NCBI RefSeq assembly: GCF_001886815.1
Contig: NZ_CP018099.1
Location: forward strand, 682,001-746,000
DNA: 64,000 nt
Source: Caldithrix abyssi DSM 13497
Lineage (GTDB): Bacteria; Calditrichota; Calditrichia; Calditrichales; Calditrichaceae
Direction: 5' to 3'
How positions within the stretch are numbered: position 1 is the stretch's first letter; each line of letters begins with the position of its first letter. The position numbers were made by a program, and so were the translations under genes. This document shows, piece by piece, positions 6,724-52,574 of this stretch. A model generated the notes under the pieces. That model had not been told where the DNA came from, did no database searches, and saw nothing but the letters and a program-made list of their open reading frames with translations.

Positions 6724-6730
6724 AGCGCGG

Positions 6731-7258: not shown

Positions 7259-7310
7259 CCACAATCCTACATGTTCATTAAAGAACTAAAGTACGCTTTT
7301 AACGCCCAAA

Positions 7311-8219: not shown

Positions 8220-8488
8220 AGAGACCTCGTCATATTTTAATGTTTGCTTAATCGTTTGTAAACATTAGTCTTTTGTAATTTAAGAGCTTAAAATAATAGA
8301 TTCAACCAAAACACGATATTTTTTGTGCTATTTTTAACGAAGTCTGTTAAAATATTGATGGAGATAGGGAAAAATGAGATTATTGGATTGGAGTGTTTGA
8401 TTTAAGGCTTTTGCGAGAGCCATCAGCAAGAAACGCTGCGCTGTTAATGATCATTCGTGCTTTATTAACCGTTCAATTGGGATGCGCA

Positions 8489-8741: not shown

Positions 8742-8780
8742 CCCCCTCTCCGCGTCCCTCCCACGCCTTTTTAACATCTC

Positions 8781-10949
8781 TTAAAAAATATGGCGCCGTT
8801 TCTTACGATAGGGAATGGGCTCCTGGTGTTTGTCGCACTTTTTAGACGGCGCGTATTTTAAATTAAATAGTTCTTCGTACGTTTCCGGACAGTAGGGCGT
8901 GGCCAGCAAATTGGTTTCTGCGCAAATCTTTAAGCGGGCAACCCCAGAAGCCTGAGGAAAATCCTTGTGCTTGCGAATATCCGGAATCGAATCATAGACC
9001 ATTTTCATAAAATCCGCCCAGAAGGGCAGAGCGGCCACCGAGCCGGTCATCCCGCGGCCCAGGCTGTATTTAAAGTCGTCCAGTCCCACCCAGATACCGG
9101 CCACCATATCCGGCGTAAAGCCAATGAACCAGGCGTCGGTGTAGGAGTTGGTTGTGCCGGTTTTACCGCCGGCTTTTTCGTAAAATTTAAAAACCGTTCT
9201 GGCCCGGGCGCCCGTTCCGCGATTGACCACCGTTTGCAGCATATCGTTCATAATGTAGGTGGTTTCCGGCGACAGGGCTTCTTTCATGCGCGGCGTTTGC
9301 GTGTAAATGACATTACCGTTTCGATCCTCAATACGCGTAATGGCGATGGGATAGACATGCACGCCGTTATTGGCAAAAATGCCGTAGGCAGAAATAATTT
9401 CCAGCGGAATCACATCCGCGCTGCCCAGAGCCAGGGAAGAATAGGGATGCAGGGGCGTGGTGATGCCCATTTCACGGGCATATTTAATGACCATTTGCGG
9501 CGTAATATCGGCAATCAGGCGCACGGCAACGGAGTTCAGCGATTTGCGTAAGGCTTCGCGCAGGGTGACCATTTCACCGCTAAACGCGCCGTTGTAATTT
9601 TGCGGCGTCCAGCGCGTGCTATCGGGATTAAATTCCACCGTGGGCAAATCCGGGTATTTACTGGCGGGAGAATAACCGTTATCAATCGCCGCCGTGTAAA
9701 GAAACGGTTTAAAGGCGGAGCCGGGTTGACGCATCATTTGCGTAACGCGGTTCCACTTCGATTTTGAAAAATCCCGCCCGCCGACCATGGCCAGAATATG
9801 CCCGTTGTGTGGATCAATTGCCGTAAAGGCCAGTTGCACTTTGCTGATACTCTCATAGGCCGAGTCGCCCAGTTCTTCTTTAATTTTTCGGAAGACCGAT
9901 TGCCGCCGAACGCGTTCCTGAATAGCGTCAATATGTTTGGCAATGGACATTTCCATGTATTTTTGAACGCGCGTGTCCAGCGTGGTGTAAATACGCAAAC
10001 CGTCTTCATAAATATTAACGCCCAGCGAATCCTGCAACTTATTAAGTTTGCGTCGCACATATTCCGTGAAGTAGGGCGCAATTTTCATTTTGTACGGATC
10101 GGTGATATCCAGTCCCAGCGGCAATTGTTTCAGGCTATCAAACTCCGCTCTGGTCAATTTACCATTGTCCATCATCATGCTCAGCACCACATTACGGCGT
10201 TTTAGGGCGCGTTCCGGATGACGAATGGGCGAGTAATAGGTTTGACCCTTCAGAATTCCGATTAAAAGGGCCGCTTCCTGAACATTCAAATCTTCCACAT
10301 CTTTATTAAAATAGCGCTTTGCCGCCGCCCGAATGCCGTAAGCATGATTACCAAAAAAAGTAATATTCAAGTACATACTTAAAATTTCTTCTTTGGAATA
10401 GGTGCGTTCGATCTGGATGGCGGTTAAAGCTTCTTTGATTTTACGATCGAAGGTCTGGGCATAACCAAAATACAAATTGCGCGCCAATTGCATGGTGATG
10501 GTGCTGGCGCCCTGCTTCAATTCCATGTGGATCAAGTCAACCAGTAAGGCGCGTAAAATTCCTGTCAGATTAATGCCCCAGTGGTTGAAGAAGTCGCGAT
10601 CCTCAGTGGAGATCAATGCGTCGATGACGTATTTTGGAATCTTTTCATAGGGCGTATAGGTGCGATTAAACGTGAAAAACGAATGCAAAACCTCGCCGTC
10701 CGCCGAATAAACAACCGTGGCGATTTCCGGATCAATACGCTCCAGCTTTTCCAGAGGGGGCAATTCCTTGCTTAGCGAATACAGATAGAGCCCAAAAACC
10801 AGCAAAAATATCAAAGCGCCGGCAATGCCAATCCACGTTGTTGTTTTCAGCCGAAAAGGTGAAGAGGCCGACCCTTTTTGCGTTCCCGTTGTTTTCTTTA
10901 TTTTCGTACGACTAATAGAACCCGTGTTGGTTCTTCGTTTTCGTTTCAT
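8781..10949 (-). CDS. Class A penicillin-binding protein (PBP1A-type)
   Basis: This bifunctional peptidoglycan synthase has 722 residues. A short basic cytoplasmic tail precedes one membrane anchor (about 37-60). The GT51 glycosyltransferase domain follows, with STEDRDFFNHWGI (catalytic Glu near 115) and KQGASTITMQLARN. The transpeptidase domain carries all three motifs: SxxK in PGSAFKPF (Ser near 411), SLN in KSLNSVAVR (near 468) and KTGT in GGKTGTTNSYTDAW (near 595). It acts at the periplasmic face of the inner membrane, polymerising and cross-linking glycan strands. It is transcribed alone, divergent from the TPR lipoprotein. Confidence 0.96.
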   Translation of the reverse strand: MKRKRRTNTGSISRTKIKKTTGTQKGSASSPFRLKTTTWIGIAGALIFLLVFGLYLYSLSKELPPLEKLERIDPEIATVVYSADGEVLHSFFTFNRTYTPYEKIPKYVIDALISTEDRDFFNHWGINLTGILRALLVDLIHMELKQGASTITMQLARNLYFGYAQTFDRKIKEALTAIQIERTYSKEEILSMYLNITFFGNHAYGIRAAAKRYFNKDVEDLNVQEAALLIGILKGQTYYSPIRHPERALKRRNVVLSMMMDNGKLTRAEFDSLKQLPLGLDITDPYKMKIAPYFTEYVRRKLNKLQDSLGVNIYEDGLRIYTTLDTRVQKYMEMSIAKHIDAIQERVRRQSVFRKIKEELGDSAYESISKVQLAFTAIDPHNGHILAMVGGRDFSKSKWNRVTQMMRQPGSAFKPFLYTAAIDNGYSPASKYPDLPTVEFNPDSTRWTPQNYNGAFSGEMVTLREALRKSLNSVAVRLIADITPQMVIKYAREMGITTPLHPYSSLALGSADVIPLEIISAYGIFANNGVHVYPIAITRIEDRNGNVIYTQTPRMKEALSPETTYIMNDMLQTVVNRGTGARARTVFKFYEKAGGKTGTTNSYTDAWFIGFTPDMVAGIWVGLDDFKYSLGRGMTGSVAALPFWADFMKMVYDSIPDIRKHKDFPQASGVARLKICAETNLLATPYCPETYEELFNLKYAPSKKCDKHQEPIPYRKKRRHIF

Positions 10950-11360
10950 TGCGCTCCTTTTACATTCTTCATTTTTGGTAAGCTAAAAATTAATAAATTT
11001 AACTCTAATATAAAATTTTTTCTCCATTAAAATGGTTTGCTTTACAGAAAGGCTTCTTTTTGTCGGCAGTGCGTCAATTTATGTCTGCCGCAAACAGAAC
11101 CTTCCCATCAGGCCAGTAACCATTCCATTTGTTAAAAAAAGAAAGCTACAATTAACCCTGATGAGGGAAAGGCTCCCGAACATGCGACCATGCATTCAAA
11201 ATAGAACATTCTTCTTTTTAAGCGACACGGTCTTGCGAAAGAAGTCTTTGTTTTTCAGGAACTAAATAAAAGAAAAAGGGATTTAATACCTGCAAACGAT
11301 ATTCATGGAAAAACTTAGCTTGTTATTTATTGGTAGTAGCTTTAAATTAGGCCACTTATT
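10950..11360. other. Divergent intergenic region, no gene supported
   Basis: About 410 bp separate the PBP gene (leftward) from the TPR lipoprotein operon (rightward) and must hold promoters for both. A 77-codon open frame at 11032-11265 has no ribosome site, no recognisable domain and an unusual composition, so it is not called. No terminator, tRNA or strong repeat was seen. Confidence 0.5.
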
Positions 11361-13046
11361 ATGAAAAAAAGATATTTGATTTTCAACCTGTTAATTTTGA
11401 TTTTTTTGGGTAGCTGCGTTCACTACCGCCCGCCCCTGAAAAAGGGTACGGAAAAAGAACATCCCCATGTGTTCAAAGCGCGCGATCATTTTTTACAGGG
11501 TATTTACTACCAGCAGGAAGGCCGATATCCGGAAGCTCTGGTCGAGTTTTATCAGGCCCTGCATTACGATTCCACTTCGGCCACCATTTACAGCGCCATT
11601 GCCGAAAACTACATTCAGCTTGGAGAATACGAGACCGCCGAACTCATGTTAAAAAATGCCCGGCGTCTGGCGCCGAACAATGCCGATATTTTAGAAATGT
11701 CTGCCGAAGTGGCTTTACGCCTGGGCAAAGACGACCAGGCCATCCAATTTTATGAACGGTTGCTAAAAGTGAATCCCTATGACGACAGCGCGCGGGAGAT
11801 GCTGATCCTATTGTACCAGAAAAAAGGAAACGATCTGGCCGTGGCCCGACACAATCGGATGTTGATGGAATTGTACGGCGCAAACAAAGATTTACTCTAT
11901 CGCTTAACGCAAACCTACCTGCGCACAAAAAAATACAGCGAGGCCACCAAAACGGTTCGCTCCATTTTAAAATTGGACAGCACAGATTCCAAGGCTTACT
12001 ATTTTTTAGGGCTGATGCAGGAACAAAAACTGAATACAGACAGCGCCGCATACTACTATCAAAAAGCCGTCAAATTTGATCCAAAGTTTGACCAGGCGGT
12101 TGAGCGTTTGAACTTTATTTACCGCACAAAAAAAGCCTGGCCGCAAATTGTTCGACTGTACAAATATGTGTTAAAGGCCGACTCGGCTGCGGCGCCGGCA
12201 AAAATTTTAATCGCCGAAGCATATTTTAATATGAATCAGCCCGACAGCGCAAGCCTTTACCTTAAACCGCTGCTCCATCGATCGAACTTGCCGCCCGGCG
12301 TTTTTGAACTGGCCGGCAGGATTGCCCTGGATCAAAAAAATTACCCTCAGGCCGAAACGTATTTCAAAAAAGCCATCCAGGCCGATCCGGAGAATCGCCT
12401 GGCCTGGCTATTGTTAGCCTTCACCTATTCAAGCATGGACGATGTAGCCAGAGCCGATTCCACCTATCAGGAGCTGCTTGGACGTTTTGGGAATGAAGCG
12501 ACTTTCTGGGCCTTTTACGGTAATTTTTTGCAGGAAAATCAAAAGTACCAGGAATCCATCAAAGCCTTTAAAAAGGTGCTGGAACTGGAGCCGAACAATG
12601 AAGCGGCGCTTTCGGGACTGGGCATTGTTTACGAAAACATGAAAATGTTCGCGCAATGCGACAGTATTTACGAAGTGGCCCTGCAGCGCCTGCCGGATAA
12701 CCCATTGATCTTAAACAACTACAGCTACAGCCTGGCCGAACGCGATAAAGATTTACAGCGCGCTCTGCAAATGGCTCGACGCGCCATTGAACTGAGCCCG
12801 GATAACTCGGCCTATCTGGATACCTATGGTTGGGTGCTGTACAAGCTGGGGCGCTATCAGGAAGCCGTCAAATACATTAAACGTTCGATTGAATTGCGCG
12901 ATGATTCCGCCGTGGTCATCGAACACCTGGGCGATGTGTACAAAGCCATGGGCGATCTGGAAAACGCCCTCCACTACTGGAAAAAAGCGCTGGAATTAGA
13001 ACCGAATAACGAATCGTTAAAAAAGAAAGTAGAAGAATACCAATGA
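11361..13046 (+). CDS. TPR-repeat outer-membrane lipoprotein
   Basis: The 561-residue product begins with a lipoprotein signal (IFLGSC, Cys19 as the acylated residue). It then consists almost entirely of tetratricopeptide repeats, recognisable by A-x(3)-Y..A...P motifs such as AEAYFNMNQPDSASLYLKPL and YPQAETYFKKAIQADPEN. TPR superhelices assemble protein complexes; in FCB bacteria such lipoproteins often accompany envelope biogenesis. It overlaps the start of the DUF4292 lipoprotein gene by 4 nt (ATGA), which indicates translational coupling, and heads a run of envelope/glycan genes. Confidence 0.88.
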   Translation: MKKRYLIFNLLILIFLGSCVHYRPPLKKGTEKEHPHVFKARDHFLQGIYYQQEGRYPEALVEFYQALHYDSTSATIYSAIAENYIQLGEYETAELMLKNARRLAPNNADILEMSAEVALRLGKDDQAIQFYERLLKVNPYDDSAREMLILLYQKKGNDLAVARHNRMLMELYGANKDLLYRLTQTYLRTKKYSEATKTVRSILKLDSTDSKAYYFLGLMQEQKLNTDSAAYYYQKAVKFDPKFDQAVERLNFIYRTKKAWPQIVRLYKYVLKADSAAAPAKILIAEAYFNMNQPDSASLYLKPLLHRSNLPPGVFELAGRIALDQKNYPQAETYFKKAIQADPENRLAWLLLAFTYSSMDDVARADSTYQELLGRFGNEATFWAFYGNFLQENQKYQESIKAFKKVLELEPNNEAALSGLGIVYENMKMFAQCDSIYEVALQRLPDNPLILNNYSYSLAERDKDLQRALQMARRAIELSPDNSAYLDTYGWVLYKLGRYQEAVKYIKRSIELRDDSAVVIEHLGDVYKAMGDLENALHYWKKALELEPNNESLKKKVEEYQ

Positions 13047-13834
13047 TGAGAAGACTGCCGATCCTAATGATATTAACGTTTTTAATTATTTTGCAGGGAT
13101 GTACTTCGAAACGCCCATTATTAACAAAACAATATCCCGATCTAACCTATCGTCAACTGCTGGAATTGCACGATCAATGGATCAACAGCATCCGAACGCT
13201 AAGCGCTAAGGGTCGAATTACCATCGATTCGCCGTCCTATTCCGGAAAATTTGAAGCCGATATTTATGCCAGCGGCAGGGATTCTCTGCTGATTTCGGTC
13301 AAGGGACTATTCGGGGCCAACGTGGGCAAGGTTTTTATTGGCAAAGAACGTTTTATCTTTTACAATCAGTACGAAAACCAATTTATTACCGGACAAAAGA
13401 GCGACTTTGAAAACATGAATTTTCTGCAATTCCCCCTGTCGCTCAACGAATTGCAACAGGTCTTTTTAGCCAGAGACGAATTTAATATTTTGAAAAAAGA
13501 AAAATTTGAAAAAAAGCCTGACGGGTATTTTTTAAGCGCCAAAAACGGTCGCTTTCATTATCACATCTGGTTTGATGCCAACACATTGCTCATTAAGCGC
13601 ATTGAATATTACAATGACCAGAAGCTGCTGTTTTTTAAAGAATATCGACAATTCAGCAAAAAAAACGGCGTCCTATTTCCGCGTGTGATTAATTTTGTGC
13701 GGCCCGATGAAAAACAGGGCGTGAGCATTATTTTTTCTCAAATTGAGATCAACAAACCGCTTGATGGGCAGGTGTTTCAAATTAAAGTCAGCGAATCTGC
13801 AAAACAGTTAATTATTCCGTCAAGTAATTCATAA
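13043..13834 (+). CDS. DUF4292-like lipoprotein (LolA/LolB fold)
   Basis: This 263-residue lipoprotein has the lipobox LQGC (Cys20) and a beta-rich body beginning SIRTLSAKGRITI, followed by DSLLISVKGLFGANVGKVFIG. That is the pattern of DUF4292 proteins, whose predicted fold is the open beta-barrel of LolA/LolB lipoprotein carriers. It probably acts in the periplasm or at the outer membrane, handling lipids or lipoproteins; this is inferred from fold. Translation is coupled to the TPR lipoprotein before it, and a glycosyltransferase gene follows 13 nt later. A second ATG lies immediately after the first. Confidence 0.75.
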   Translation: MMRRLPILMILTFLIILQGCTSKRPLLTKQYPDLTYRQLLELHDQWINSIRTLSAKGRITIDSPSYSGKFEADIYASGRDSLLISVKGLFGANVGKVFIGKERFIFYNQYENQFITGQKSDFENMNFLQFPLSLNELQQVFLARDEFNILKKEKFEKKPDGYFLSAKNGRFHYHIWFDANTLLIKRIEYYNDQKLLFFKEYRQFSKKNGVLFPRVINFVRPDEKQGVSIIFSQIEINKPLDGQVFQIKVSESAKQLIIPSSNS

Positions 13835-40352: not shown

Positions 40353-41738
40353 CTAAACTCTTACGCTCTTTTCCCCTCCGCCTGCCTTTCGGCGGTTGAT
40401 TTTTTCCAGCTTACTGCGCAGGGTGGTGCGGGGCAGCTTTAATAAATCCGCCGCCTTTGAAATATTGTTGTTGGCCTGTTTCATGGCCCAGTCGATGATC
40501 TCTTTTTCTTTGGCCGCCATAAAATCATTAAAAGAATGGTAAGAAAAAAAACTACTGCTTTCTGGCAAGGGCTGTTCTTTACCGCTTGTCACGCCCGGCA
40601 GCAGAGCAAAGGGATCGAAAGACTGCATGCCGGAAAAGGCCACAAAGCGTTCCACAAAATTTTCCAGTTCGCGTACATTTCCCGGCCAGTCGTACTGCGA
40701 GAGACGTTCCAGCAGTTCCGGCGAAAATAAACGCCAGATGTGCGTTGCATTCTGCTTTTGCAAAAAATGTTTGATTAATTGCGGAATATCCTCTTTTCGT
40801 TCGCGTAGCGGCGGCAACACGATGGGAATGATATTCAGACGGTAAAATAAATCTTCTCTAAAGCGGCCTTCCTTCATGCGTTGTTTTAAATCAACTTTGG
40901 TAGCCGTGATCACGCGTACATCGATTTTTACCGATTCCCAGCCGCCAATGCGAATTAATTCCTGCTCCTGCAAAACGCGTAACAATTTAACCTGCATTTT
41001 CATGGGTAAATCATCAATATCATCGATGAACAACGTGCCGTGATTGGCCCGTTCAAAATAGCCGAGATGGCGTTTGGCCGCGCCGGTAAAGGCCCCTTTT
41101 TCATAGCCGAACAATTCGCTCTCCAGCAAGGTTTCGGGGATGGCCGCGCAGTTAACGGCCCAAAAAGGCTGATCCTTTCGCCAGCTGTTCTCATGCAAAG
41201 CGCGCGCCACCAGTTCCTTGCCCGTGCCGCTTTCGCCCACAATTAAAACCGTGGAATCGTGCCGCGCCACATGATGAATGATCTCCTGAAGGTGGCGCAT
41301 GGCCGGCGAAGCGCCGATGATCGGTTGTTTTTCAATAATTTCCAGACGTTTTTTAAGCTGTTGATTCTCATCCAGCACGCGCTGCAATTTTTCTGCATTG
41401 CGCAAAATATTTAGCAAATGATCCGGGGTGAAGGGTTTGGTTAAATAGTCATAAGCGCCCATCTTCAGCGCCTGCACCGCCGTATCCACTGTACCGTAAG
41501 CGGTCATCAATACAACCACCGTTCTCGGCTTTTTCGATTTGACCTGCCGCAGCACTTCGATGCCGTCCGCGCCGGGCAGGCGTAAATCGGCCAGCACCAG
41601 GTCAAAGGCTTCCCGCTCGAACAGCTCCAGCCCCTCCGTGCCTGTTTCGACGCTGCTTACGTCATAGCCTTCTTTTTTCAGCAGATCGTTTAAAGTAATG
41701 CGTGATATTTTCTCGTCTTCAATAATCAAAATTTTCAT
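40353..41738 (-). CDS. Sigma-54-dependent response regulator (NtrC family)
   Basis: This 461-residue protein has a receiver domain (1-120, phospho-acceptor Asp51 in VLADLRLPG), a sigma-54 AAA+ domain (about 140-370) with Walker A GESGTGKELVARALHEN, the sigma-54 contact loop GAFTGA in YEKGAFTGAAKR, and TLFIDDIDDLP as Walker B, then a Fis-type DNA-binding helix-turn-helix (WAMKQANNNISKAADLLKLPRTTLR). It is coupled by overlap (ATGA) to the histidine kinase before it. Its probable target is the sigma-54 promoter at 44366-44380, reached from the half-site cluster at 44230-44277. Confidence 0.96.
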   Translation of the reverse strand: MKILIIEDEKISRITLNDLLKKEGYDVSSVETGTEGLELFEREAFDLVLADLRLPGADGIEVLRQVKSKKPRTVVVLMTAYGTVDTAVQALKMGAYDYLTKPFTPDHLLNILRNAEKLQRVLDENQQLKKRLEIIEKQPIIGASPAMRHLQEIIHHVARHDSTVLIVGESGTGKELVARALHENSWRKDQPFWAVNCAAIPETLLESELFGYEKGAFTGAAKRHLGYFERANHGTLFIDDIDDLPMKMQVKLLRVLQEQELIRIGGWESVKIDVRVITATKVDLKQRMKEGRFREDLFYRLNIIPIVLPPLRERKEDIPQLIKHFLQKQNATHIWRLFSPELLERLSQYDWPGNVRELENFVERFVAFSGMQSFDPFALLPGVTSGKEQPLPESSSFFSYHSFNDFMAAKEKEIIDWAMKQANNNISKAADLLKLPRTTLRSKLEKINRRKAGGGEKSVRV

Positions 41739-43204
41739 TGTCTTTCTCCATACGGCAAAATAACTTCAAAGCGCGTTCCTTTGGCGGGTTGACTGTGTGC
41801 CACAATCTGCCCGCCGTGGGCCTGAACGATGTTCAACGCCACCGAAAGCCCCAATCCCGTTCCTTTGCCAGGCTCTTTAGTCGTGTAAAACGGTTCGAAT
41901 ATTTTTTCCAGATCGGTTTCGTTTATGCCCATTCCGTTATCTTCAATCGTTAAACGTACCTGGTGGGAGGGTAAAGCTTCCGTACGTACAATCACCCGCC
42001 CCCCATCTTCAACCGCATCATAGCCGTTCAACAGCAGATTCATGACCACTTCCTGCAGAAGAGAAGCGTCTCCATACACGGGCGGCAAATCCGCAGCAAG
42101 CTGAAGTTGCAGGTCAATATGCCTTTGATTTAGACGGTAAGCAAGCAGTTCCACCACCTGTCGCACCACCTGATTCAAGTCGACCCACTCCTTATCCCGG
42201 GCCGATTTTCTGGAAAAGCCAAGCAGTTTGCGCACCACCGATTCAATATGCTCCAGGCCTTCGTTGATTAAAGCCAGGTATTCTTTTAACTGCTTTTGAT
42301 TTTGCGGCTCCTTTTCAATGGCATAAACACAATGTTTGATGCCGTTTAAGGGATTGTTGATTTCGTGCGCCACTCCGGAAGCCAGGCGGCCGATCGAAGC
42401 CAGCTTTTCCGCGTGGTAAATCTGTTTTTGCGCTTCGAGCAGTTGCGCTTGCGAGTTTTGCAAACGTTGACGCAAAAGTTCAAAGTGGCGCGTTAAAGCG
42501 CCGATTTCATCCGCACGTTCCGGCAATTCCAGCGGCGCTGAAGAATCCAGCTCCATGGAATCCATGGCCTGCACCAGCAGCATAAGCGAACGCACCGTAT
42601 GTTTGATTAAATAATTTAAAACCGCCAGTACAACCAGCGTTAAAAGCAGCGTAATCCCCACCAGCAGATAAAACAGGCGGGCAATTTCTCGCCGCGTCGA
42701 TTCCGCTTCAAAGGCAATGCGTAAAATTCCCCAGCGCTTTCCGCCAACCTGCAGAGGCAGCGCCGTTTCTATAAGCCACCCGAACTGCGGCGTGCGATAA
42801 ATGCCGCTGACCAGCCCCGTTGTTTTGGCCAGTCGCCCGGAAAGTTCATCGGTCAGCAGGCGATTGTACATGCGCGGATCCGTATGGGCGATGACGCGGT
42901 TATGAGTATCCGTCACCACAATGTATTGAATTTCGGGAATCTTTTCTTTAAGGCCCAGCATGTACGATTCCAGTAAATCTTCCACCTGAAAGTTTTCATT
43001 TTCCGAATAGATCAAAGCGTCCAGCACAGAAATGCCAAAGGCGCTTGTTACGGCCTCCGCTTTTTGTTGCAATTGCTGCAAGATCATGGAACGCCAGTGC
43101 AGCGCAATGCCGATGGAAATAAAAACCATAAAAACCACGACCACGCCGCCCACCGCCAACATCATTTTTAAGCGCAGGGTAGCTGATTTGAACAAAGGAC
43201 GCAT
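41735..43204 (-). CDS. Membrane sensor histidine kinase
   Basis: The 489-residue kinase has two membrane helices (about 12-35 and 180-205) flanking a periplasmic sensor of about 140 residues, a HAMP linker, a dimerisation/phosphotransfer domain with the H box GVAHEINNPLNGIKH, and an ATPase domain with N box LLNGYDAVEDG, G1 DNGMGI, F box FEPFYTTK and G2 GTGLGLS. This NtrB-like catalytic core fits the NtrC-type partner downstream. The gene touches the stop codon of the PhnD-like gene (TAATG-type junction), so all three are co-translated. The binding protein probably presents ligand to the sensor domain. Confidence 0.95.
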   Translation of the reverse strand: MRPLFKSATLRLKMMLAVGGVVVVFMVFISIGIALHWRSMILQQLQQKAEAVTSAFGISVLDALIYSENENFQVEDLLESYMLGLKEKIPEIQYIVVTDTHNRVIAHTDPRMYNRLLTDELSGRLAKTTGLVSGIYRTPQFGWLIETALPLQVGGKRWGILRIAFEAESTRREIARLFYLLVGITLLLTLVVLAVLNYLIKHTVRSLMLLVQAMDSMELDSSAPLELPERADEIGALTRHFELLRQRLQNSQAQLLEAQKQIYHAEKLASIGRLASGVAHEINNPLNGIKHCVYAIEKEPQNQKQLKEYLALINEGLEHIESVVRKLLGFSRKSARDKEWVDLNQVVRQVVELLAYRLNQRHIDLQLQLAADLPPVYGDASLLQEVVMNLLLNGYDAVEDGGRVIVRTEALPSHQVRLTIEDNGMGINETDLEKIFEPFYTTKEPGKGTGLGLSVALNIVQAHGGQIVAHSQPAKGTRFEVILPYGERQ

Positions 43205-44142
43205 TACGGAGCCTCCCTTGCATTTACCAGTGGCAGCAGCAGGTCGTAATCTTCATTTTGGGCCGGCGCAAATCCGTAGGCAAATTCGGCATCCCATTCA
43301 GAAAGCATCTTCTGATAGCGGGGCTGACTGGCGTCAATTTTTAGCAAGGCCGTTTGTATGGCCTGCACAACCGCCTGCGGAGATTGATCGGAAACCACCA
43401 TCGGCGAGCTGGGAATGGGCTCGGAACGAGCGAAAACACGTATCCCGCGATTTCGAAATTCATTGGCCACGCGATCTTTGACAACGCCGGCGTCAAAATT
43501 GCCCTTCAGAACTTCGTAAACCACCGTATGGTGGTGGGCAAAATGGTGAACGGAGTCCAGTTGCGATTGTGTAAGACCGTTTTCGGGCAGGGCCCTGTTC
43601 AAAAACCAGTTGCTGGAAAAAGACAGGGCAGAAGGAAGGGCCACCTTCTTTCCTTTCAAATCGGCAATGGAATGCAGGCCTATTTCCGCTTTGCAGATGA
43701 CAACCGCCTGCAACAGCGGCCTGCCCCCGGCAGACAGCGGACGTAGAATGCATCGAAGACGGTGATTTTGCGCTTCTCTGGCGAAAATGAATGATCCTAA
43801 AAAAGCCGCTACCACTTCGCCGCTGACCAGTTGCTCCACCGTTTGTTTGTACGATTTACTCAACTGCAATTCAAAACGATAAGGCGTGTTTAAAGTAAGG
43901 TAATCCATCACCGGCTGATACCCTTTGTAAATGAAGGTGGGCGGAAAGCGCGAAACGACCCCGATTCGGAAGACGGGTTTTAAAGATTCGGTTGATGAGG
44001 TAGACTGCGACGAAAAAGAAGGAAAGGGACGCGAAATGTCGGTCATTTTGTGAAACAAAAAGACCAACAATAAAGCGGACAATAAACCGCTCAGGAACAT
44101 TGCCCCCCAAAAGATGTTGCCTTTTAAATTTTTCTCCTTCAA
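43204..44142 (-). CDS. Membrane-anchored PhnD-like (phosphate/phosphonate-type) binding protein
   Basis: This 312-residue protein has one N-terminal membrane helix (about 10-31) and a periplasmic type II binding domain of the PhnD/phosphonate family: FRIGVVSRFPPTFIYKGYQPVMDYL, VSGEVVAAFLGSFIFAREA, ADLKGKKVALPSALSFSSNWF and NFDAGVVKDRVANEF. Instead of an ABC transporter it is followed, with touching reading frames, by a histidine kinase and sigma-54 regulator. It is therefore likely the ligand receptor of a three-part sensor. The ligand is unknown: phosphonate, phosphate ester or another oxyanion. ATG 44142 is the only good start. Confidence 0.85.
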   Translation of the reverse strand: MKEKNLKGNIFWGAMFLSGLLSALLLVFLFHKMTDISRPFPSFSSQSTSSTESLKPVFRIGVVSRFPPTFIYKGYQPVMDYLTLNTPYRFELQLSKSYKQTVEQLVSGEVVAAFLGSFIFAREAQNHRLRCILRPLSAGGRPLLQAVVICKAEIGLHSIADLKGKKVALPSALSFSSNWFLNRALPENGLTQSQLDSVHHFAHHHTVVYEVLKGNFDAGVVKDRVANEFRNRGIRVFARSEPIPSSPMVVSDQSPQAVVQAIQTALLKIDASQPRYQKMLSEWDAEFAYGFAPAQNEDYDLLLPLVNAREAP

Positions 44143-44229
44143 ACTTCATCCTGACTATAATTATTCAACGCTTCTGTTTCAGGAAAACGTAAACATCTTT
44201 CCCACACAATTCAAGCCTAAAAGGCAATA

Positions 44230-44277
44230 TTTCGTCATTTTAATCGACGAAATTTCGTCAACCGGCTAGATTTCGAC
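44230..44277. promoter_or_regulatory. Putative enhancer for the sigma-54 regulator: TTTCGTC half-site cluster
   Basis: TTTCGTC occurs at 44230-44236, as its complement GACGAAA at 44246-44252, directly again at 44253-44259, and as the variant TTTCGAC at 44271-44277. The first pair forms a palindrome with 9-bp spacer. The cluster is about 120 bp upstream of the -24/-12 promoter at 44366, a normal distance for an NtrC-type activator, and about 90 bp from the start of the divergent sensor operon, so it could also mediate autoregulation. Confidence 0.6.
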
Positions 44278-44365
44278 AGCTGTATTTTGCAAATTTTTGA
44301 AGACCGTCAATCCCGGAGCGTGAAAAATCAATGAGTTAACGACCTTTTGCCATAATACAATGAAC

Positions 44366-44380
44366 TGGCACATTTCTTGT
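44366..44380 (+). promoter_or_regulatory. Sigma-54 (-24/-12) promoter of the phosphate-transport-type operon
   Basis: TGGCACATTTCTTGT fits the sigma-54 consensus TGGCAC-N5-TTGC at every fixed base except the last (T for C), with exact spacing. Initiation would be near 44391, giving a leader of about 52 nt before the ATG at 44444. A divergent operon encodes a GAFTGA-containing activator, and putative activator sites lie upstream. Confidence 0.8.
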
Positions 44381-44443: not shown

Positions 44444-45031
44444 ATGGAAAAGATAATTCCTCGCTGGGAATGGCGGACATTTGGCCAGGATCTCAGGCAG
44501 GGCATCAAAGCCATTCAGGCCTATCCGGAAGGTAAAGTGCGCAAGAGCGGCGAAATCTACATCCTTTCGGAAAAAAGCAATGACAACACAAAGATTCGCG
44601 ACGAACTGATGGACATCAAAACTCTTTTGCGCGTCAATCAGGATGGCCTTGAACAGTGGACGGTGTTGCTCAAAGCCGGCTTTCCCATTCATATCAACGA
44701 GCTGGCCATAGTGTACAAGGCTTTTAATTTACCGCTTCCTTATTTAAAAAAGGACGAGTACTCCTATGATGAGTATCTGAATAACCTGATTAGCCCCAAC
44801 AAGGCGTTGCACATCGTCAATGTGGTTAAAGAACGGCACGGCTTTACCATTAACGATTGCATTGTGGAAATCGCATACGTTACCTTTAACAATCAGCCCA
44901 TTCAAACCATTGCCGTTGAACACGCCGATCCCGAATTGGTGATAAAAACGGTGAAAGAGCTGGGATTGGATCATTACGAAAACGTTAACTACATTAAAGC
45001 CATGAAGCGCTACGTGGGACTGGTATATTAA
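44444..45031 (+). CDS. CYTH-like domain protein, first gene of the sigma-54 operon
   Basis: The 195-residue protein starts after GGGAGG. It opens with RWEWRTFGQDL and carries NTKIRDELMDIKTLLRV, GLEQWTVLLKAGFPI, CIVEIAYVTFNN and TIAVEHADPELVIKTVKELGL. Alternating charged beta-strands and the position of these motifs suggest a divergent CYTH/triphosphate tunnel protein, so it may bind or hydrolyse inorganic triphosphate, polyphosphate or a nucleotide triphosphate. No signal peptide. A canonical CYTH gene lies two genes downstream. The family assignment is from motif resemblance only and is moderate. Confidence 0.55.
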   Translation: MEKIIPRWEWRTFGQDLRQGIKAIQAYPEGKVRKSGEIYILSEKSNDNTKIRDELMDIKTLLRVNQDGLEQWTVLLKAGFPIHINELAIVYKAFNLPLPYLKKDEYSYDEYLNNLISPNKALHIVNVVKERHGFTINDCIVEIAYVTFNNQPIQTIAVEHADPELVIKTVKELGLDHYENVNYIKAMKRYVGLVY

Positions 45032-45094: not shown

Positions 45095-45493
45095 ATGAAA
45101 ACCTATCGTTTTTCACAGGGGCCCATCGAAGAGGTTTCCTGGGGAAAATTTGTAATCAACGGGCGCGCCCACTTTAAAAACAGCGACGGCACGCTTACCG
45201 GCGCAGGAAAAGACATCTGCCTCATTGGAAAAATGTTGTCTCCCTGGCGGGAGCGAAAGGGGCACCTGCTTACCCAGGATATGGTGCGCCGCGTGGCAAG
45301 CGCAGATGTGGACACGGTGATCATCGGCAACGGTTTTAACGGGGCTTTACAGGTCCCGGATAAGGTTAAAGCTTTTTTAGAAGAAAGCGGCAAAACGGTG
45401 ATCATCGAAAAAACGCCGCAGGCCTGCGAGCGCTTTAATCGCATGTTTCGTCAGGGCGCAAAAGTAGCCTTGCTGGCTCATGGAACGTGCTAA
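45095..45493 (+). CDS. Mth938-like (NDUFAF3/DUF498) domain protein
   Basis: The 132-residue protein matches the Mth938/NDUFAF3 fold: an N-terminal strand block (ISWGKFVINGRAHFKN-like VSWGKFVINGRAHFK), a central VDTVIIGNGFNGALQVPDKV with the glycine turn, and KTVIIEKTPQACERFNRM. Small members of this family occur in all domains; the human relative is a respiratory complex I assembly factor, and the biochemical role in bacteria is unknown. It lies between two CYTH-type genes within the sigma-54 operon. The 121-nt gap after it is the longest in the operon and shows no clear terminator. Confidence 0.8.
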   Translation: MKTYRFSQGPIEEVSWGKFVINGRAHFKNSDGTLTGAGKDICLIGKMLSPWRERKGHLLTQDMVRRVASADVDTVIIGNGFNGALQVPDKVKAFLEESGKTVIIEKTPQACERFNRMFRQGAKVALLAHGTC

Positions 45494-45614: not shown

Positions 45615-46097
45615 ATGGCTCAGGAAATTGAACGTAAATTTTTGGTCAAAGACGATTCGTTTAAACGGCAGGCTTTTAAATCAACGCGCATTGTTCAGGG
45701 CTATCTTTCATCCGTGCCGGAGCGTACGGTGCGCGTGCGCATTAAGGGCGAAAAGGGATATTTGACGGTAAAAGGCATCGGCAATGCGTCCGGCGCCAGC
45801 CGTTTTGAATGGGAGATGGAAATCCCCAAAGAAGACGCCGAAAATCTGCTGAAAATTTGCGAGCCGGGCGTCATCGATAAAACGCGCTATCTGGTAAAAA
45901 ACGGCGACCTGACCTTTGAAGTCGATGAATTCTACGGCGAAAACGAAGGGCTGGTGATTGCCGAGATCGAATTAAAATCGGAAGATCAGGCCTTTGAAAA
46001 ACCGGCCTGGCTGGGCAGGGAAGTAACCGGCGACACGCGATTTTACAATTCCATGCTCATGAAAAATCCGTTTAAAAACTGGAAAGATCAACTTTAA
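45615..46097 (+). CDS. CYTH domain protein (inorganic triphosphatase / class IV adenylate cyclase-like)
   Basis: The 160-residue protein is a canonical single-domain CYTH enzyme: the signature EIERKFLV (ExExK) at residues 4-11, the RTVRVRIKGEKGYLTVKG strand pair, FEWEMEIP, CEPGVIDKTRYLV and FEVDEFYGENEGLVIAEIEL. Its likely activity is divalent-cation-dependent hydrolysis of inorganic tripolyphosphate, as in bacterial relatives such as ygiF-type and NeuTTM; adenylate cyclase activity is an alternative. Its place beside Pit transporter genes favours phosphate metabolism. It precedes the TctC-TctB fusion gene by 13 nt. Confidence 0.93.
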   Translation: MAQEIERKFLVKDDSFKRQAFKSTRIVQGYLSSVPERTVRVRIKGEKGYLTVKGIGNASGASRFEWEMEIPKEDAENLLKICEPGVIDKTRYLVKNGDLTFEVDEFYGENEGLVIAEIELKSEDQAFEKPAWLGREVTGDTRFYNSMLMKNPFKNWKDQL

Positions 46098-46110: not shown

Positions 46111-47610
46111 ATGAACTACCCTTCAGCGCGCTCGTGGTTTTACACCTTAATTATTCTTTTTGCGACGGTTTCGTTGAGCATGGCGTCCTTCCCGGAAAAG
46201 CCCATTACCATTCTGGTGCATTCCAAGCCGGGCAGCGCCATCGACATCACCTCGCGTCAAATTGCCAATATCGCCCGCAAATACTGCCCGGCGCCCATTC
46301 TGGTGGAAAATAAAAGCGGCGGTTCCGGGGTTATTGCCATGCGCACGGCGTTAAATCGCAAAGCGGACGGGTACACGGTTTTAGGCGTAACCAAATCCTT
46401 TATTTCCACCATCTTGCTGACGCAAAGCGGCATTACCATGGACGATTTTTACTTTCTGGCCTGTATGGCGGAAGACCCCGAGGCATTGATTACCAACCGC
46501 CGTTCTTCGGTGCGCACATTGGAAGAGATTATCTCTGACGCCAGAGCTAAAGGAGGAAAACAGCGCTGGCTCGGCCCGCTGGTTGGCGGCGTGGATCATC
46601 TGATGGCTTTGCGAACCTGGGATATTTTAGGCATTAAGGCGGAGTGGATTCCTTACGAAGGGGGCTCGGACGCTCTGGCGGCCTTAATGGGCAAGCACGG
46701 CGTGGTTTATGTCGGAAATCCCGGCGACATTCTGGGCAGGCCCGATTTGATGGTCGCGGCCGTGGCTTCGCCGCACAGACTCTCCCGCTTTCCCCAGGCG
46801 CCCACGTTCGTTGAAAAGGGATACGATCTGACCAGCGAGGTTCTGTGGCGGGGATACGCCGTGCGCAAAGGAACGAACATAGAGGCCGTTAACTACCTGA
46901 CGGACCTATTCCGCAAGGTCAGCAGGGATTCGGCCTGGTTGAACTTTGTGCATGCCACCGCCGCGCGACCGGTTTTTTACGATCATCGAGAATTCACGCG
47001 CATGGTCAATCGCGATCAACAGATCGCCATTAAATATTTACAAAAAGCGGGCATCTTAAAGACCAACCGCGGCGATAAGACGGCAAGTTACCGTCTGTCC
47101 GCATTCGTATTAGCCGGAATCTACCTGCTGATTTTACTTTTCACCTATCTTTTTAAACGCCGTTGGCTAAGCGGCGACACCGTAATAGCCGGTTTTTTTA
47201 TCTTTACGGGACTTTTCCTTTACTGGCAAACCTTTAACTTTCCTGCAGGCAAATTGACCTCGTCGGTCGGGCCGGCTTCCATTCCACGTTTGTGGATTTA
47301 CGGCCTGTGGTTTTTCAACCTCTGGCTTTTGATCAGCGCCGTCAAACATCCCCCCGAACAGAAAGCCAATTCCGGCAAAATCGTCGTGCCATTGCGCCTG
47401 GTGATTTTAATGTTTGTGTACGTGGCGGTGGTTCAATATCTGGGCTATTATTTAAGCACGCTAATTTTTCTGGTTCTGGGCGCCTATCTTTTAGGTTACC
47501 GGAACCACCTTCTCATTTTTGGCGTGTCGTTAGGCTACATTGGCTTTGCTTATTTTGTTTTTTACAAGATGCTGCAGGTGCCGTTACCCGAACTAATCTG
47601 GTTTCATTAA
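46111..47610 (+). CDS. TctC-TctB fusion: Bug-type binding protein joined to TctB membrane subunit
   Basis: Residues 1-325 are a Bug/TctC periplasmic solute-binding protein: signal peptide to about 27 (SLSMASFP), then EKPITILVHSKPGSAID, VENKSGGSGVIAMRTAL and KADGYTVLGVT. Residues about 330-499 have the TctB pattern of four membrane helices (VLAGIYLLILLFTYLF, VIAGFFIFTGLFLYW, LVILMFVYVAVVQYLGYYLS, and a last helix). In ordinary tripartite tricarboxylate transporters these are two separate polypeptides. The fusion tethers the receptor to the membrane complex. TctA follows after 19 nt. The substrate is probably a carboxylate or related anion; it is unknown. Confidence 0.88.
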   Translation: MNYPSARSWFYTLIILFATVSLSMASFPEKPITILVHSKPGSAIDITSRQIANIARKYCPAPILVENKSGGSGVIAMRTALNRKADGYTVLGVTKSFISTILLTQSGITMDDFYFLACMAEDPEALITNRRSSVRTLEEIISDARAKGGKQRWLGPLVGGVDHLMALRTWDILGIKAEWIPYEGGSDALAALMGKHGVVYVGNPGDILGRPDLMVAAVASPHRLSRFPQAPTFVEKGYDLTSEVLWRGYAVRKGTNIEAVNYLTDLFRKVSRDSAWLNFVHATAARPVFYDHREFTRMVNRDQQIAIKYLQKAGILKTNRGDKTASYRLSAFVLAGIYLLILLFTYLFKRRWLSGDTVIAGFFIFTGLFLYWQTFNFPAGKLTSSVGPASIPRLWIYGLWFFNLWLLISAVKHPPEQKANSGKIVVPLRLVILMFVYVAVVQYLGYYLSTLIFLVLGAYLLGYRNHLLIFGVSLGYIGFAYFVFYKMLQVPLPELIWFH

Positions 47611-47629: not shown

Positions 47630-49126
47630 ATGAACATCTTTACGGAACTAATAAACGGATTTCATCTCATCCTTTCCTGGACGCCCCTGTTCATGGTTGC
47701 GCTGGGCGTGATGCTGGGCATCCTGGTGGGCGTTATCCCCGGATTGTCGCCGGCCATGGGCGTGGCCTTGTTGGTGCCGTTCAGTTATGGAATGGAACCG
47801 CTCAATGCGCTCATTTTGCTAACCGCTGTTTACGCAGCGGCCAACTATGGCGGAACCATTACGGCCATTGCCATCAACACGCCGGGCACGCCTTCGGCCA
47901 TTGTTTCTACCTTTGACGGTTACCCTTTAACGCGGCAGGGAAAGCCCGGCAAGGCGCTGGGCGCCTCGGTAATTGCTTCGACCTTTGGCGGATTTTTAGG
48001 GGCCGTGATTCTGGTTTTCTTTTCCGAACCGCTGGCCCGCGCCGCCTTAAAGTTTGGCCCGGCCGAATACTTTTCGCTGGCCATTTTTGGTTTGACCATT
48101 ATTTCTTCTCTCTCCAGAGGCAACTGGATTAAAGCGTTTATTGCCACGCTGATCGGGCTGCTTTTGAACACGGTGGGCATGGATCCCTTTACGGGCTATT
48201 TGCGCTTTACCTTTGGCATTCCGGAGCTGGCGGACGGCTTCGGTTTTATTCCTGCCTTAATCGGCTTGTTTGCTCTGGGCGAAATTTTTCTTTCGCTGGA
48301 AAAATCGGAGACTGTTCAATCGGCCGTGCAAAAGATTTCTTCGGAAATGCCCAAGTTAAAAGAGATCTGGGCTATCAAACGCACCATCTTGCAGTCTTCT
48401 TTACTGGGGACCCTGATTGGCGTCGTTCCCGGAGCCGGCGCAACCATTGCGGCTTTTATCGCTTACGGAGAGGCCAAACGCATCAGCAAAAATCCGGAGC
48501 AGTTCGGAAAGGGCGCGCTGGACGGAGTGGCGGCTTCTGGCGCGGCAACCAGCGGATCGGTGGGCGGCGCCCTGGTTCCGTTGTTAACCCTGGGCATTCC
48601 CGGCAGCGCGGCCACGGCCGTGTTGATCGGCGCGCTGATGTTGCACGGCCTTACACCGGGCCCCGAATTGTTTAAAAGCAATGCCGCCATTATTTACGGA
48701 CTGTTTGCCAGTCTGTTTTTAGCCTACTTTGTCATGTTCTTTCTGGGCTATCTGGGAAACCAATTATGGATCAAGATCATTTCCCTGCCCCGGGAGCTTT
48801 TGTACCCGCTCATTCTGGCCATTGCCTTCATTGGTAGCTATTCGGTTAACAATTCCATGTTTGATGTGTGGAGCTGCCTGGGTTTTGGAATACTGGGCTG
48901 GATTTTACGGCGCTATCATTTCCCTACGGCACCGGTTATTTTAGGACTTATTCTGGGCTTTTTAGCGGAAACCAATTTCCGGCGCGCTTTATTGATGGGC
49001 GATGCGCGCATCTTTTTTACGCAGCCGGTCAGTCTGGCGCTTTTAATTTTAGCGGTATTATCCTTTTTCTATCCCATTTTAAAAGCTAAGTTTAAATTTT
49101 TGAACAATAATAACAATAAAAAATAG
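47630..49126 (+). CDS. TctA large membrane subunit of a tripartite tricarboxylate transporter
   Basis: The 498-residue protein has 12 or so membrane helices and both duplicated TctA signatures: GVIPGLSPAMGVALLVPF with YGGTITAIAINTPGTPSA in the first half, and GVVPGAGATIAAFIAYGEAKR with VPLLTLGIPGSAATAVLIGA in the second. TctA proteins form the ion-coupled transport channel. With the TctC-TctB fusion directly before it, the whole transporter is encoded by two genes. It is followed by the phosphate transporter pair after 9 nt, so both transporters share one transcript. Confidence 0.95.
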   Translation: MNIFTELINGFHLILSWTPLFMVALGVMLGILVGVIPGLSPAMGVALLVPFSYGMEPLNALILLTAVYAAANYGGTITAIAINTPGTPSAIVSTFDGYPLTRQGKPGKALGASVIASTFGGFLGAVILVFFSEPLARAALKFGPAEYFSLAIFGLTIISSLSRGNWIKAFIATLIGLLLNTVGMDPFTGYLRFTFGIPELADGFGFIPALIGLFALGEIFLSLEKSETVQSAVQKISSEMPKLKEIWAIKRTILQSSLLGTLIGVVPGAGATIAAFIAYGEAKRISKNPEQFGKGALDGVAASGAATSGSVGGALVPLLTLGIPGSAATAVLIGALMLHGLTPGPELFKSNAAIIYGLFASLFLAYFVMFFLGYLGNQLWIKIISLPRELLYPLILAIAFIGSYSVNNSMFDVWSCLGFGILGWILRRYHFPTAPVILGLILGFLAETNFRRALLMGDARIFFTQPVSLALLILAVLSFFYPILKAKFKFLNNNNNKK

Positions 49127-49135: not shown

Positions 49136-49780
49136 ATGGCCATATTATTTAAAAAGACAAAATTGCTGGAAGGACAAATCGAAGAATATCTGGATTGCGT
49201 TATTCAGGGCGCTTTACTGTTCCGTCAGGGCGTTAAATATTATTTACAAAACAGAATGGACGACTTTGAAGCGCGCCTGGAGGACCTGGATAAGCTGGAA
49301 AGTCGGGGCGATCAACTGCGCCGCCAGATTGAAACCAGTTTGTATGAACACACGCTGATTCCGGAATCGCGCGGCGATGTGCTGGGCCTGCTGGAAAGCA
49401 CGGACGCCGTTTTGAACACCATGAACGAAACGTTAATGCAATTTTCTGTGGAGATTCCGGAAATAATCCCCGAACTGCACCAGATGTACATTGAACTGGC
49501 GGAGATTTCCACCGCCGCCGTGGAGGCCATGGTTCTGGCCATCCGCTCTTATTTTCGAGATTTAACCGCGGTGCGCGATCACATCAACAAGGTGCAGTTT
49601 TATGAAAACGAATCGGATAAAATCGCCCGTAAAATCAAACGAATCGTGTTCCGCAAAGACTTACGCCTCAGTCATAAGATTCACATGCGCTATTTTGCCT
49701 ATCACATCGAAAATATTGCCGATGAGGCTGAAGATGTTACGGATCGTCTGGCCATTGCAACCATCAAACGCTATTTGTAA
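49136..49780 (+). CDS. DUF47/PhoU-like accessory protein of the Pit transporter
   Basis: This 214-residue all-helical protein belongs to the DUF47 (TIGR00153) family, PhoU-like, with LKKTKLLEGQIEEYLDCV-like FKKTKLLEGQ at the start, ESRGDQLRRQIETSLYEHTLIPESRGDVLGLLESTD, and FYENESDKIARKIKRIVFR containing the acidic metal-binding ExxxD motifs. These proteins occur next to Pit genes and are believed to modulate phosphate uptake through the Pit permease. Here the pit gene starts 12 nt after it. No membrane segment; cytoplasmic. Confidence 0.93.
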   Translation: MAILFKKTKLLEGQIEEYLDCVIQGALLFRQGVKYYLQNRMDDFEARLEDLDKLESRGDQLRRQIETSLYEHTLIPESRGDVLGLLESTDAVLNTMNETLMQFSVEIPEIIPELHQMYIELAEISTAAVEAMVLAIRSYFRDLTAVRDHINKVQFYENESDKIARKIKRIVFRKDLRLSHKIHMRYFAYHIENIADEAEDVTDRLAIATIKRYL

Positions 49781-49792: not shown

Positions 49793-51274
49793 ATGATCTG
49801 GTTTTATTTACTAAGCGGATTGTTTTTGGGCTGGTCGCTGGGCGCCAACGATGCGGCCAATGTTTTCGGCACCGCGGTGGGCTCTAAAATGGTGCGTTTT
49901 AAAGTGGCTGCTCTGGTGGCCAGCGTGTTTGTCATTTTAGGCGCGGTGATCAGCGGCGCCGGTGCGGCGCATACCCTGGGAAAATTAGGCGCAGTTAACG
50001 CCATTGCCGGGTCTTTCACCGTGGCGTTGGCCGCCGCCGCAACCGTGGCCTGGATGACTAAACTGTCGCTGCCCGTTTCCACCTCTCAGGCCATTGTCGG
50101 CGCCATCATCGGCTGGAATTTATTTACCGGCTCGCCTACCGACCTGAACTCACTGGGCAAAATTTTAAGCACCTGGGTCATTTCTCCGATTCTGGCGGCC
50201 GTCTTTTCCATTTTGCTTTACAAATTGTTTAAATTTTTTCTGGGCAGAGCCCGAATTCACTTACTCGAACTGGACGCCTACACGCGGGCCGGACTCATTC
50301 TGGTGGGCGCATTCGGCTCTTACAGTCTGGGCGCCAACAACATCGCCAATGTAATGGGCGTCTTTGTTCCCGCCTCGCCCTTTAAAGATTTGAATATTCT
50401 TAATGTGATTCATTTTACGGGCGTTCAGCAATTATTCCTGCTGGGCGGTCTGGCCATTGCCGTGGGTATTTACACTTACTCCTATCGTGTTATGACCACC
50501 GTGGGCAACGAAGTGTTCAAGCTAACGCCCGTGATGGCGCTGATTGTTGTTTTATCCGAATCGCTTGTGCTCTTTTTATTCGCCTCGCAAAGCCTGGAAC
50601 GCTGGTTGATTGCCCACAATCTTCCGCCGATTCCCCTGGTGCCGGTTTCCAGCTCGCAGGCGGTAATCGGCGCGGTGATCGGGATCGGGATTGCCAAAGG
50701 CGGTAAGGGCATCAACTTTAACATTTTAGGAAAAATCGCCTCGGGATGGATTTCCACGCCCATTGCCGCAGCCATCCTTTCCTTTGTTCTGCTGTTCTTC
50801 ATGCAAAACGTTTTTGAGCGCGAAGTGGTGCGTCCCGTGACCTACGAAATTTCGCAGGACGTTTTAAATAAATTGGCCGCAGAAAACATTCCCGTGCGGA
50901 ATTTACAGAGCCTGAACGGCAAACAATTCAAAAATATGTACAAATTCAGGGAAAGCCTGCAGCAGCGGGAAGCGTTGAACGAAAGCCAATTGTACAAAAT
51001 TTTCGAACTGGCTGAGGTGGATAGTTTTTACATCGATTCGACGCTGGCCAGCACAGAACTGGATGCGGAAATGTTCAGCCCGGAGCAGATTGAAGCGGTT
51101 AAAAAATTACACGGCCGGCTCTTCATTCATAAGTGGCAGCTGGATGACGCGCTTGCGCAGTTAAGCCCGGCCTGGCGACTAAAACCGAATACCATTAGAA
51201 ATAAATTCTTTAATAAAAACATCCTTAAAAAACGTCAGATTCTTTATCAAGTTTTCAAGAAACGTCATCTTTAA
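49793..51274 (+). CDS. Inorganic phosphate transporter, Pit family, with C-terminal extension
   Basis: The 493-residue permease carries the duplicated PiT signatures: GANDAANVFGTAVGS near residue 17 with PVSTSQAIVGAIIGW, and GANNIANVMGVFVP near 180 with PVSSSQAVIGAVIGIGIAKGG. About ten helices end near residue 345. The last 145 residues are hydrophilic and helical (KLAAENIPVRNLQSL ... FKKRHL), an extension beyond the compact Pit core that may serve regulation. Pit transports metal-phosphate with H+ or Na+. Upstream sits its DUF47 partner and downstream an OprO/P-type porin, forming an outer-to-inner-membrane route. Confidence 0.95.
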   Translation: MIWFYLLSGLFLGWSLGANDAANVFGTAVGSKMVRFKVAALVASVFVILGAVISGAGAAHTLGKLGAVNAIAGSFTVALAAAATVAWMTKLSLPVSTSQAIVGAIIGWNLFTGSPTDLNSLGKILSTWVISPILAAVFSILLYKLFKFFLGRARIHLLELDAYTRAGLILVGAFGSYSLGANNIANVMGVFVPASPFKDLNILNVIHFTGVQQLFLLGGLAIAVGIYTYSYRVMTTVGNEVFKLTPVMALIVVLSESLVLFLFASQSLERWLIAHNLPPIPLVPVSSSQAVIGAVIGIGIAKGGKGINFNILGKIASGWISTPIAAAILSFVLLFFMQNVFEREVVRPVTYEISQDVLNKLAAENIPVRNLQSLNGKQFKNMYKFRESLQQREALNESQLYKIFELAEVDSFYIDSTLASTELDAEMFSPEQIEAVKKLHGRLFIHKWQLDDALAQLSPAWRLKPNTIRNKFFNKNILKKRQILYQVFKKRHL

Positions 51275-51290: not shown

Positions 51291-52574
51291 ATGAAGATGA
51301 AATTAGTCCGATCAGGAATGTTGTTGCTTTTACTATTGCTTCCCGGCCTGGTTAAGGCCCAAAGTCAACAGCAAGAAACAAAGCACGCCCATAAAATGGC
51401 GCATCAGGGTGTTTCAGGAGAAACAACCTATCAGATATCCGGCGTTTCCGAGTGGAAGAATGGCATCTATTTCTGGGAATCGCAGGACGGCGCTTTCTGG
51501 GGTCGCTTTGATACGCGAATTTTTATTAATGGCGCCTATTTTTTTGAAAACAAAAATAAGTTGAGCAACGGCACCCATCTGCGCAAGGGACGCTTTGCCG
51601 TTAAGGTTAATTTATGGCGCGTATGGTACATGGAATGGGATATGGACATGGCCGAAGGCGTCGTGGAAGCCAAGGACATGTTTCTGGCGTATCATGGCTT
51701 TAAAAATGCCTATCTTAAATTCGGTCATTTTAAGATGCCGTTCGGTTTAAATATTTTAACCTCGTCGCGTTTCATTCCCTTTGCAGAACGCGCTTACAAT
51801 GCGCTGGCTTTTAAGATGGGACGTCGTATGGGCCTTGAATACGGCCGCTGGACAGATTGGTGGAATTTTCGGGGAGCCATTTACGGCCAGACCTTTGATA
51901 CGAACAAAAACAAAACCAAAGATGAAACCGGTGGGGGCGTTGCAGCCAGGCTGGCAAGCGCTCCGCTGCAGAACGCAACGACCATACTCCATCTCGGTAT
52001 CTCCGCAGCCTGGACCAAACCGGACGATCAATCCAACATCGTTCAGTTTGACAGCGAACCGGAGACTAAAATCGGCGATGTGGAAATTCTGGACACCGAT
52101 TACATCCGAAACGTGGATTACACGACGCGTCTGGGTTTAGAAGGCGCCGCCGTTTACCGCAATTTTCACTTACAGGGCGAATACAACCTGGTGCGTCTCA
52201 ACCGCCTGCAAAACCTGCCGGAGGCGCAATTTTCCGCCGGCTACGTGTATCTGCTCTGGAGCATCACGGGCGAATCGCGGCGCTGGGACAAAACCCAGGG
52301 TGAATTTTCGCAATTAATCCCCAGAGATGTAAAAAAAGGCGCCTGGGAGGTCGGTTTACGTTACAGCCATTTAAATCTTTCCGATACCGATGCCGGCATT
52401 TTGGGCGGCCGCGCCAACAACTACACTCTGGGGCTCAACTGGTACCCCAATCCCAACATGGTGTTTCAGCTCAATTACACTTATGTCTCAACTTCGCCCA
52501 ATGCCACGGGCAACGGCTTTGTGGGCGACGATCGGTTCTCTTATGTTCAGTTTATGACAAAATTCTTTTTTTAA
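51291..52574 (+). CDS. OprO/OprP-type (phosphate-selective) outer-membrane porin
   Basis: The 427-residue protein has a signal peptide (LLLLLLLPGLVKA) and a beta-barrel ending in aromatic Phe (TKFFF), as outer-membrane proteins do. The pattern GRFDTRIFINGAYF, LRKGRFAVKVNLWRVWYMEWDMDMAEG, YLKFGHFKMPFGL and AFKMGRRMGLEYG is that of the phosphate-selective porin O/P family. A His-rich segment follows the signal peptide (HAHKMAH). It lies after pit in the operon and likely lets phosphate or another anion enter the periplasm. Anion preference is inferred from family and neighbours. Confidence 0.88.
   Translation: MKMKLVRSGMLLLLLLLPGLVKAQSQQQETKHAHKMAHQGVSGETTYQISGVSEWKNGIYFWESQDGAFWGRFDTRIFINGAYFFENKNKLSNGTHLRKGRFAVKVNLWRVWYMEWDMDMAEGVVEAKDMFLAYHGFKNAYLKFGHFKMPFGLNILTSSRFIPFAERAYNALAFKMGRRMGLEYGRWTDWWNFRGAIYGQTFDTNKNKTKDETGGGVAARLASAPLQNATTILHLGISAAWTKPDDQSNIVQFDSEPETKIGDVEILDTDYIRNVDYTTRLGLEGAAVYRNFHLQGEYNLVRLNRLQNLPEAQFSAGYVYLLWSITGESRRWDKTQGEFSQLIPRDVKKGAWEVGLRYSHLNLSDTDAGILGGRANNYTLGLNWYPNPNMVFQLNYTYVSTSPNATGNGFVGDDRFSYVQFMTKFFF

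Follow-up and report, generated by a model that had tools for sequence, protein, structure and literature searches.

The intergenic stretch that separates a leftward trio of sensory genes from a rightward row of transport genes in Caldithrix abyssi DSM 13497 carries an array of three putative operator sites followed by a sigma-54 (-24/-12) element. Judged from these elements and their counterparts in relatives, there is a high probability that array and element serve a sigma-54 operon as enhancer and promoter under the control of a three-component sensor, and the sensor module very probably switches on the neighbouring anion-transport operon via the array. The window analysed here is a stretch of 64,000 nucleotides from a genome of 4,978,541 bases in a single contig. 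An earlier reading of the sequence alone had placed the motifs between divergent operons, and this position was correct.

Sensor module

The leftward trio begins with the gene for a PhnD-like periplasmic binding protein (43204–44142, minus strand; PF12974, E 1.8e-45), whose start codon is uncertain. It is abutted by the gene for a sensor histidine kinase with sCache, HAMP, HisKA and HATPase domains (41735–43204, minus strand), which is overlapped in turn by the gene for an NtrC/AtoC-type sigma-54 response regulator with a Fis-type HTH (40353–41738, minus strand), which is proposed to bind the array. Together the three genes make up one module that resembles AioXSR. The regulator had previously been described as an orphan; it is instead the third gene of this module. 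The genome contains one sigma-54 gene (rpoN).

Putative enhancer array and promoter

A direct check of the sequence confirmed the -24/-12 element TGGCACATTTCTTGT at 44366–44380 on the plus strand, which the sequence-only reading had reported as TGGCAC-N5-TTGT with the right spacing and one mismatch. It has the -24/-12 dinucleotides and the N5 spacing of a sigma-54 promoter, with its single mismatch to the TGGCAC-N5-TTGC consensus at the C of the -12 GC, and transcription would be expected to start near 44391.

Upstream of this element, exact TTTCGTC half-sites were found at 44230 (plus strand), 44246 (minus) and 44253 (plus), with a near-match, TTTCGAC, at 44271. The four half-sites described earlier are thus present within 44230–44277, and the pair at 44246 and 44253 does form a perfect palindrome, GACGAAATTTCGTC (44246–44259), but the unit is a set of three spaced palindromes. 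Read against the relatives, the half-sites appear as parts of three putative 14-bp operators: site 1, GGCAATATTTCGTC (44223–44236), which has a degenerate left arm and aligns with site 1 of five relatives; site 2, the perfect palindrome; and site 3, GGCTAGATTTCGAC (44264–44277), 18 bp from site 2 and also with a degenerate left arm. Because of this degeneracy, both of these left arms had been missed.

The site 2 palindrome has one mismatch-free occurrence in the 4.98-Mb genome. The same holds for the 23-bp TTTCGTC-N9-GACGAAA, which was considered as the unit and rejected: although it is unique in the genome, relatives keep abutting palindromes instead. An RNA element was likewise dropped as a reading of this stretch, where Rfam gave no match.

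Taken singly, neither motif stands out from chance in the window. The -24/-12 pattern with at most one mismatch was found 4 times against 5.6 expected, so that the match on its own is no evidence, and single TTTCGTC was seen 14 times against 13.5 expected. These counts are what would favour a chance or compositional cluster of half-sites beside a random consensus match. However, none of 200 dinucleotide shuffles produced three exact half-sites within 48 bp, and none of 100 produced the 14-bp palindrome; the half-site cluster is not due to chance. Conservation and leave-out prediction, presented below, also speak against a chance origin; the leave-out search has already refuted it, and we regard it as barely credible.

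Conservation in Calditrichota

The regulator, the binding protein and the first operon gene co-occur in six Calditrichota genomes: that of the window, G001, G006, G008, G009 and G011. Conservation of the half-sites in orthologous intergenic regions had been set beforehand as a test that could refute the proposal, and the sites are kept. Each of the six regions holds three 14-bp palindromes with the consensus GRCGAWATWTCGYC, whose starts lie 22–23 bp and then 18–19 bp apart. For the Calditrichota sites the first alignment was made by eye; the tests outside this set did not rely on such an alignment. Each region also has one TGGCAY-N5-TTG element, which faces the operon; no -24/-12 element faces the sensor genes in any of the six loci. 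Comparison of orthologues makes strong evidence of a consensus match that says nothing by itself.

Measured from site 2, the middle of the array, the promoter lies 114 bp away in the window and 67–451 bp away in the other genomes, a variability that is compatible with an enhancer. In G001, several hundred extra bases lie between array and promoter, both of which are intact. In the same genome, array and sensor genes are separated by a small gene in leftward orientation (L076:2530-3093), which is lipoprotein-like and has no Pfam match.

The array could be predicted from other genera. With a matrix trained on four other genera, sites 2, 1 and 3 of the window ranked 1, 3 and 25 of 63,987 positions, and the spaced triple took the top place in the window with a leave-out score of 41.9, whereas no unrelated place scored above 9.3. 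When a sequence model made from the four other-genus arrays, without that of the window, was run against all 4.98 Mb of the genome, the window array came out first (E 5.6e-6; next match E 0.1). A model of all six arrays, the window array included, found one full array per genome in the six Calditrichota genomes with the sensor module beside the operon and none in 34 other relatives. Extending this six-array search to 385 genomes added only weak matches in two distant genomes (G195 and G366), which were taken as chance since they have no sensor module around them.

Whole-genome searches of the window genome found no second array, and single sites were near control level genome-wide (26 vs 20), so a multi-operon regulon was rejected. 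The genome-wide regulon search that had been proposed from the sequence therefore locates the array, but it locates only this one. With a single array in the genome, it looks like a dedicated local switch.

Sensor-linked loci in other phyla

Relatives of the first operon gene were collected from 80 loci in many phyla. Genes for binding protein, kinase and regulator, the same trio as in AioXSR (a PF12974 protein, a kinase and a sigma-54 regulator), adjoin in 13 of these when the Calditrichota already counted are left out; the assemblies are labelled Ignavibacteria, KSB1, Neomarinimicrobiota, Acidobacteria and Bacteroidetes. All 13 linked loci have the array, with spaced-site scores of at least 16.8, although several are mutually related and they represent fewer than 13 independent events. 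Of the 61 scored unlinked loci, 60 lack it, with spaced-site scores of 5.2 or less. The exception, L148, has its array at a contig edge with only about 350 bases upstream, and its sensor genes may lie beyond the contig end. A -24/-12 element lies within 200 bp in 12 of the 13 linked loci (N-masking affects the 13th); among 60 unlinked loci, 2 have one, L148 being the first of these. The Ignavibacteria loci have two clear sites, not three.

Given the near-perfect co-occurrence of the array with the linked module across phyla, binding by another regulator, with the linkage incidental, appears very improbable. The genome does hold many NtrC-type paralogues from which such a regulator could come, but homologous operons without the module lack the array, including the related operon in G012. 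The recognition helix of the linked regulator, PRTTLRSK, is largely kept in array-bearing loci; it reads PR-T/S-TL-x-SK in most of them, whereas related regulators that lack the array have a different helix. The suggestion that the sites are the operator of the regulator at 40353 holds to the extent that a sigma-54 promoter with an enhancer array is present, which is most likely its own; with at least 26 other regulators of the NtrC family in the genome, the binder is assigned by linkage only.

The layout of these loci also bears on which of the two operons the array serves. It lies between both operons in the window and in relatives, about 80–135 bp from the start of the sensor operon in the window, and autoregulation is common; the array might then be the operator of the sensor operon, its place before the rightward promoter being a by-product of the divergent arrangement. 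However, sensor genes and operon share a strand in two loci of tandem layout (L178 and L182), where the array separates the regulator gene from the operon and is not upstream of the sensor genes. L207 has a porin gene in place of the first operon gene, and array and promoter precede the porin. Both layouts indicate that the target is the operon promoter. Furthermore, a -24/-12 element facing the sensor operon occurs in 0 of 6 Calditrichota loci, and in G001 a separate leftward gene intervenes between array and sensor genes. We consider autoregulation improbable as the explanation of the array, although the array may exert dual control.

Two other arrangements were encountered. In five Firmicutes loci (L147, L152, L153, L155 and L156), a divergent NtrC-type regulator adjoins the first operon gene and TctCB/TctA; these five have no binding protein, kinase match or array, and possibly represent a different control of the same operon. 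Another trio of binding protein, kinase and NtrC-type regulator is found in G021 and G037 (L057, about 4248-13086, and L058), near genes resembling molybdenum oxidoreductase by sequence, and its recognition helix differs.

Probable target operon

The first gene of the rightward operon (44444–45031, plus strand) encodes a divergent triphosphate-tunnel (CYTH-like) protein without a Pfam or NCBIfam family. Its AlphaFold2 model (pLDDT 92) matched thiamine triphosphatase and TTM proteins in Foldseek, with TM about 0.5–0.6, and shows a triphosphate-tunnel fold. The N-terminal ExExK signature is absent from the protein, where the invariant residues are R-x-E-x-R, and it is a divergent TTM member or a relative. 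The family is widespread, with at least 499 confirmed relatives, often beside a second CYTH protein.

The genes that follow, all on the plus strand, encode a DUF498 protein (45095–45493), which, of the Calditrichota examined, only this genus has in the operon; a CYTH protein (45615–46097; PF01928); a TctC-TctB fusion of the tripartite tricarboxylate transporter family (46111–47610; PF03401 and PF07331); TctA (47630–49126; PF01970); a DUF47/PhoU-like protein (49136–49780; PF01865); a divergent branch of the PiT-family (PHO4) transporters (49793–51274; PF01384); and an OprO/P-type porin (51291–52574; PF07396). With the Pfam model, the main PiT of relatives reaches more than double the score of the PiT in this operon. 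A sodium:sulfate/citrate-type carrier replaces TctCB and TctA in loci outside Calditrichota (L141:9076-10647 and L172:9125-10744). A literature search, for which subscription journals were largely outside reach, found no paper that deals with this operon or with a sigma-54 regulon in Caldithrix.

Proposed mechanism

When phosphorylated, regulators of the NtrC type bind to dimer sites that come in twos or threes, assemble into oligomers, reach the polymerase at -24/-12 by looping and open the promoter at the expense of ATP. The elements observed here are conserved, regularly spaced and strictly associated with the sensor genes, and the mechanism proposed for them would follow this scheme. The PhnD-like periplasmic protein would bind a small oxyanion, probably of phosphorus type, and signal to the histidine kinase, which would phosphorylate the NtrC-type regulator. 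Regulator dimers would then occupy the three palindromes at 44223, 44246 and 44264, and the assembled regulator would contact sigma-54 polymerase at 44366–44380, probably by DNA looping. Its AAA+ ATPase would open the promoter, activation rather than repression being the expected outcome, and so drive a rightward operon that presumably extends over the two triphosphate-tunnel-type proteins, the anion transporter, DUF47, PiT and the porin.

Sensed ligand

The closest solved structures to the binding protein are ArrX, PtxB, PhnD and AioX. In AioX, Cys106 bonds arsenite (PMC5908839). We take the ArrX cysteine to be the equivalent of this residue, and its column is glycine in 8 of 8 aligned orthologues, as in PtxB. 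AioX-type arsenite sensing was rejected because glycine replaces the cysteine at the ArrX-aligned position, and the sensing of arsenite by this protein is accordingly judged unlikely from the alignment. Nor does the operon contain a gene for an arsenic oxyanion enzyme.

With its porin, DUF47 and PiT genes, the operon suggests phosphorus. Since Pst permease genes and a further PHO4 gene are also present in the genome, the operon was rejected as a unique phosphate importer in the place of Pst; these genes, together with the alternation of TctA with the sodium:sulfate/citrate-type carrier, make the ligand less certain. A phosphorus-type oxyanion is our best guess.

Comparison with known systems

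In Rhizobium NT-26 and Agrobacterium, AioXSR is found with a sigma-54 aioBA promoter, which is TGGCACAACGATTGCA in NT-26 (PMC6011840, PMC5908839). The likeness lies in the grouping of genes for a PhnD-family binding protein, a histidine kinase and an AtoC/NtrC-type regulator next to a sigma-54 promoter. The operator differs: the documented AioR site is GTT-N10-AAC (PMC5335332), whereas the site here is GACGAAATTTCGTC, which does not have that form. The target differs as well, being an operon of transport and TTM genes, whereas aioBA encodes arsenite oxidase. By analogy, the system would work like AioXSR, but it is not AioXSR.

Like NtrC-type upstream activating sequences, the array consists of multiple palindromic dimer sites, three in this case, at a variable distance upstream of -24/-12, with the tolerance of position seen among the orthologues. 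It differs from them in having another palindrome and a near-fixed triple (22–23 and 18–19 bp) in Calditrichota, with similar triples in several phyla. The binding protein shares its sequence family, part of its pocket and the glycine in place of the AioX/ArrX cysteine with the phosphite/phosphonate binding proteins PtxB and PhnD; however, these are encoded with an ABC transporter, while here the gene stands with a histidine kinase and a regulator.

What is new here is the operator and the target of a sigma-54 enhancer under an XSR-type three-component system. We further suggest, as a tentative proposal that is possible rather than probable, that a distinct three-component branch, spread over multiple phyla and not described so far, senses a non-arsenite, phosphorus-type oxyanion and controls, via a near-fixed three-operator sigma-54 enhancer, a dedicated operon coupling paired triphosphate-tunnel-type proteins to anion and PiT transport. 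The analysis provides an exact, conserved putative operator and a single target operon for a regulator from a phylum that has received little study. Moreover, it connects a widespread triphosphate-tunnel-like family with the sensing and transport of oxyanions, and so offers a way to approach the function of both.
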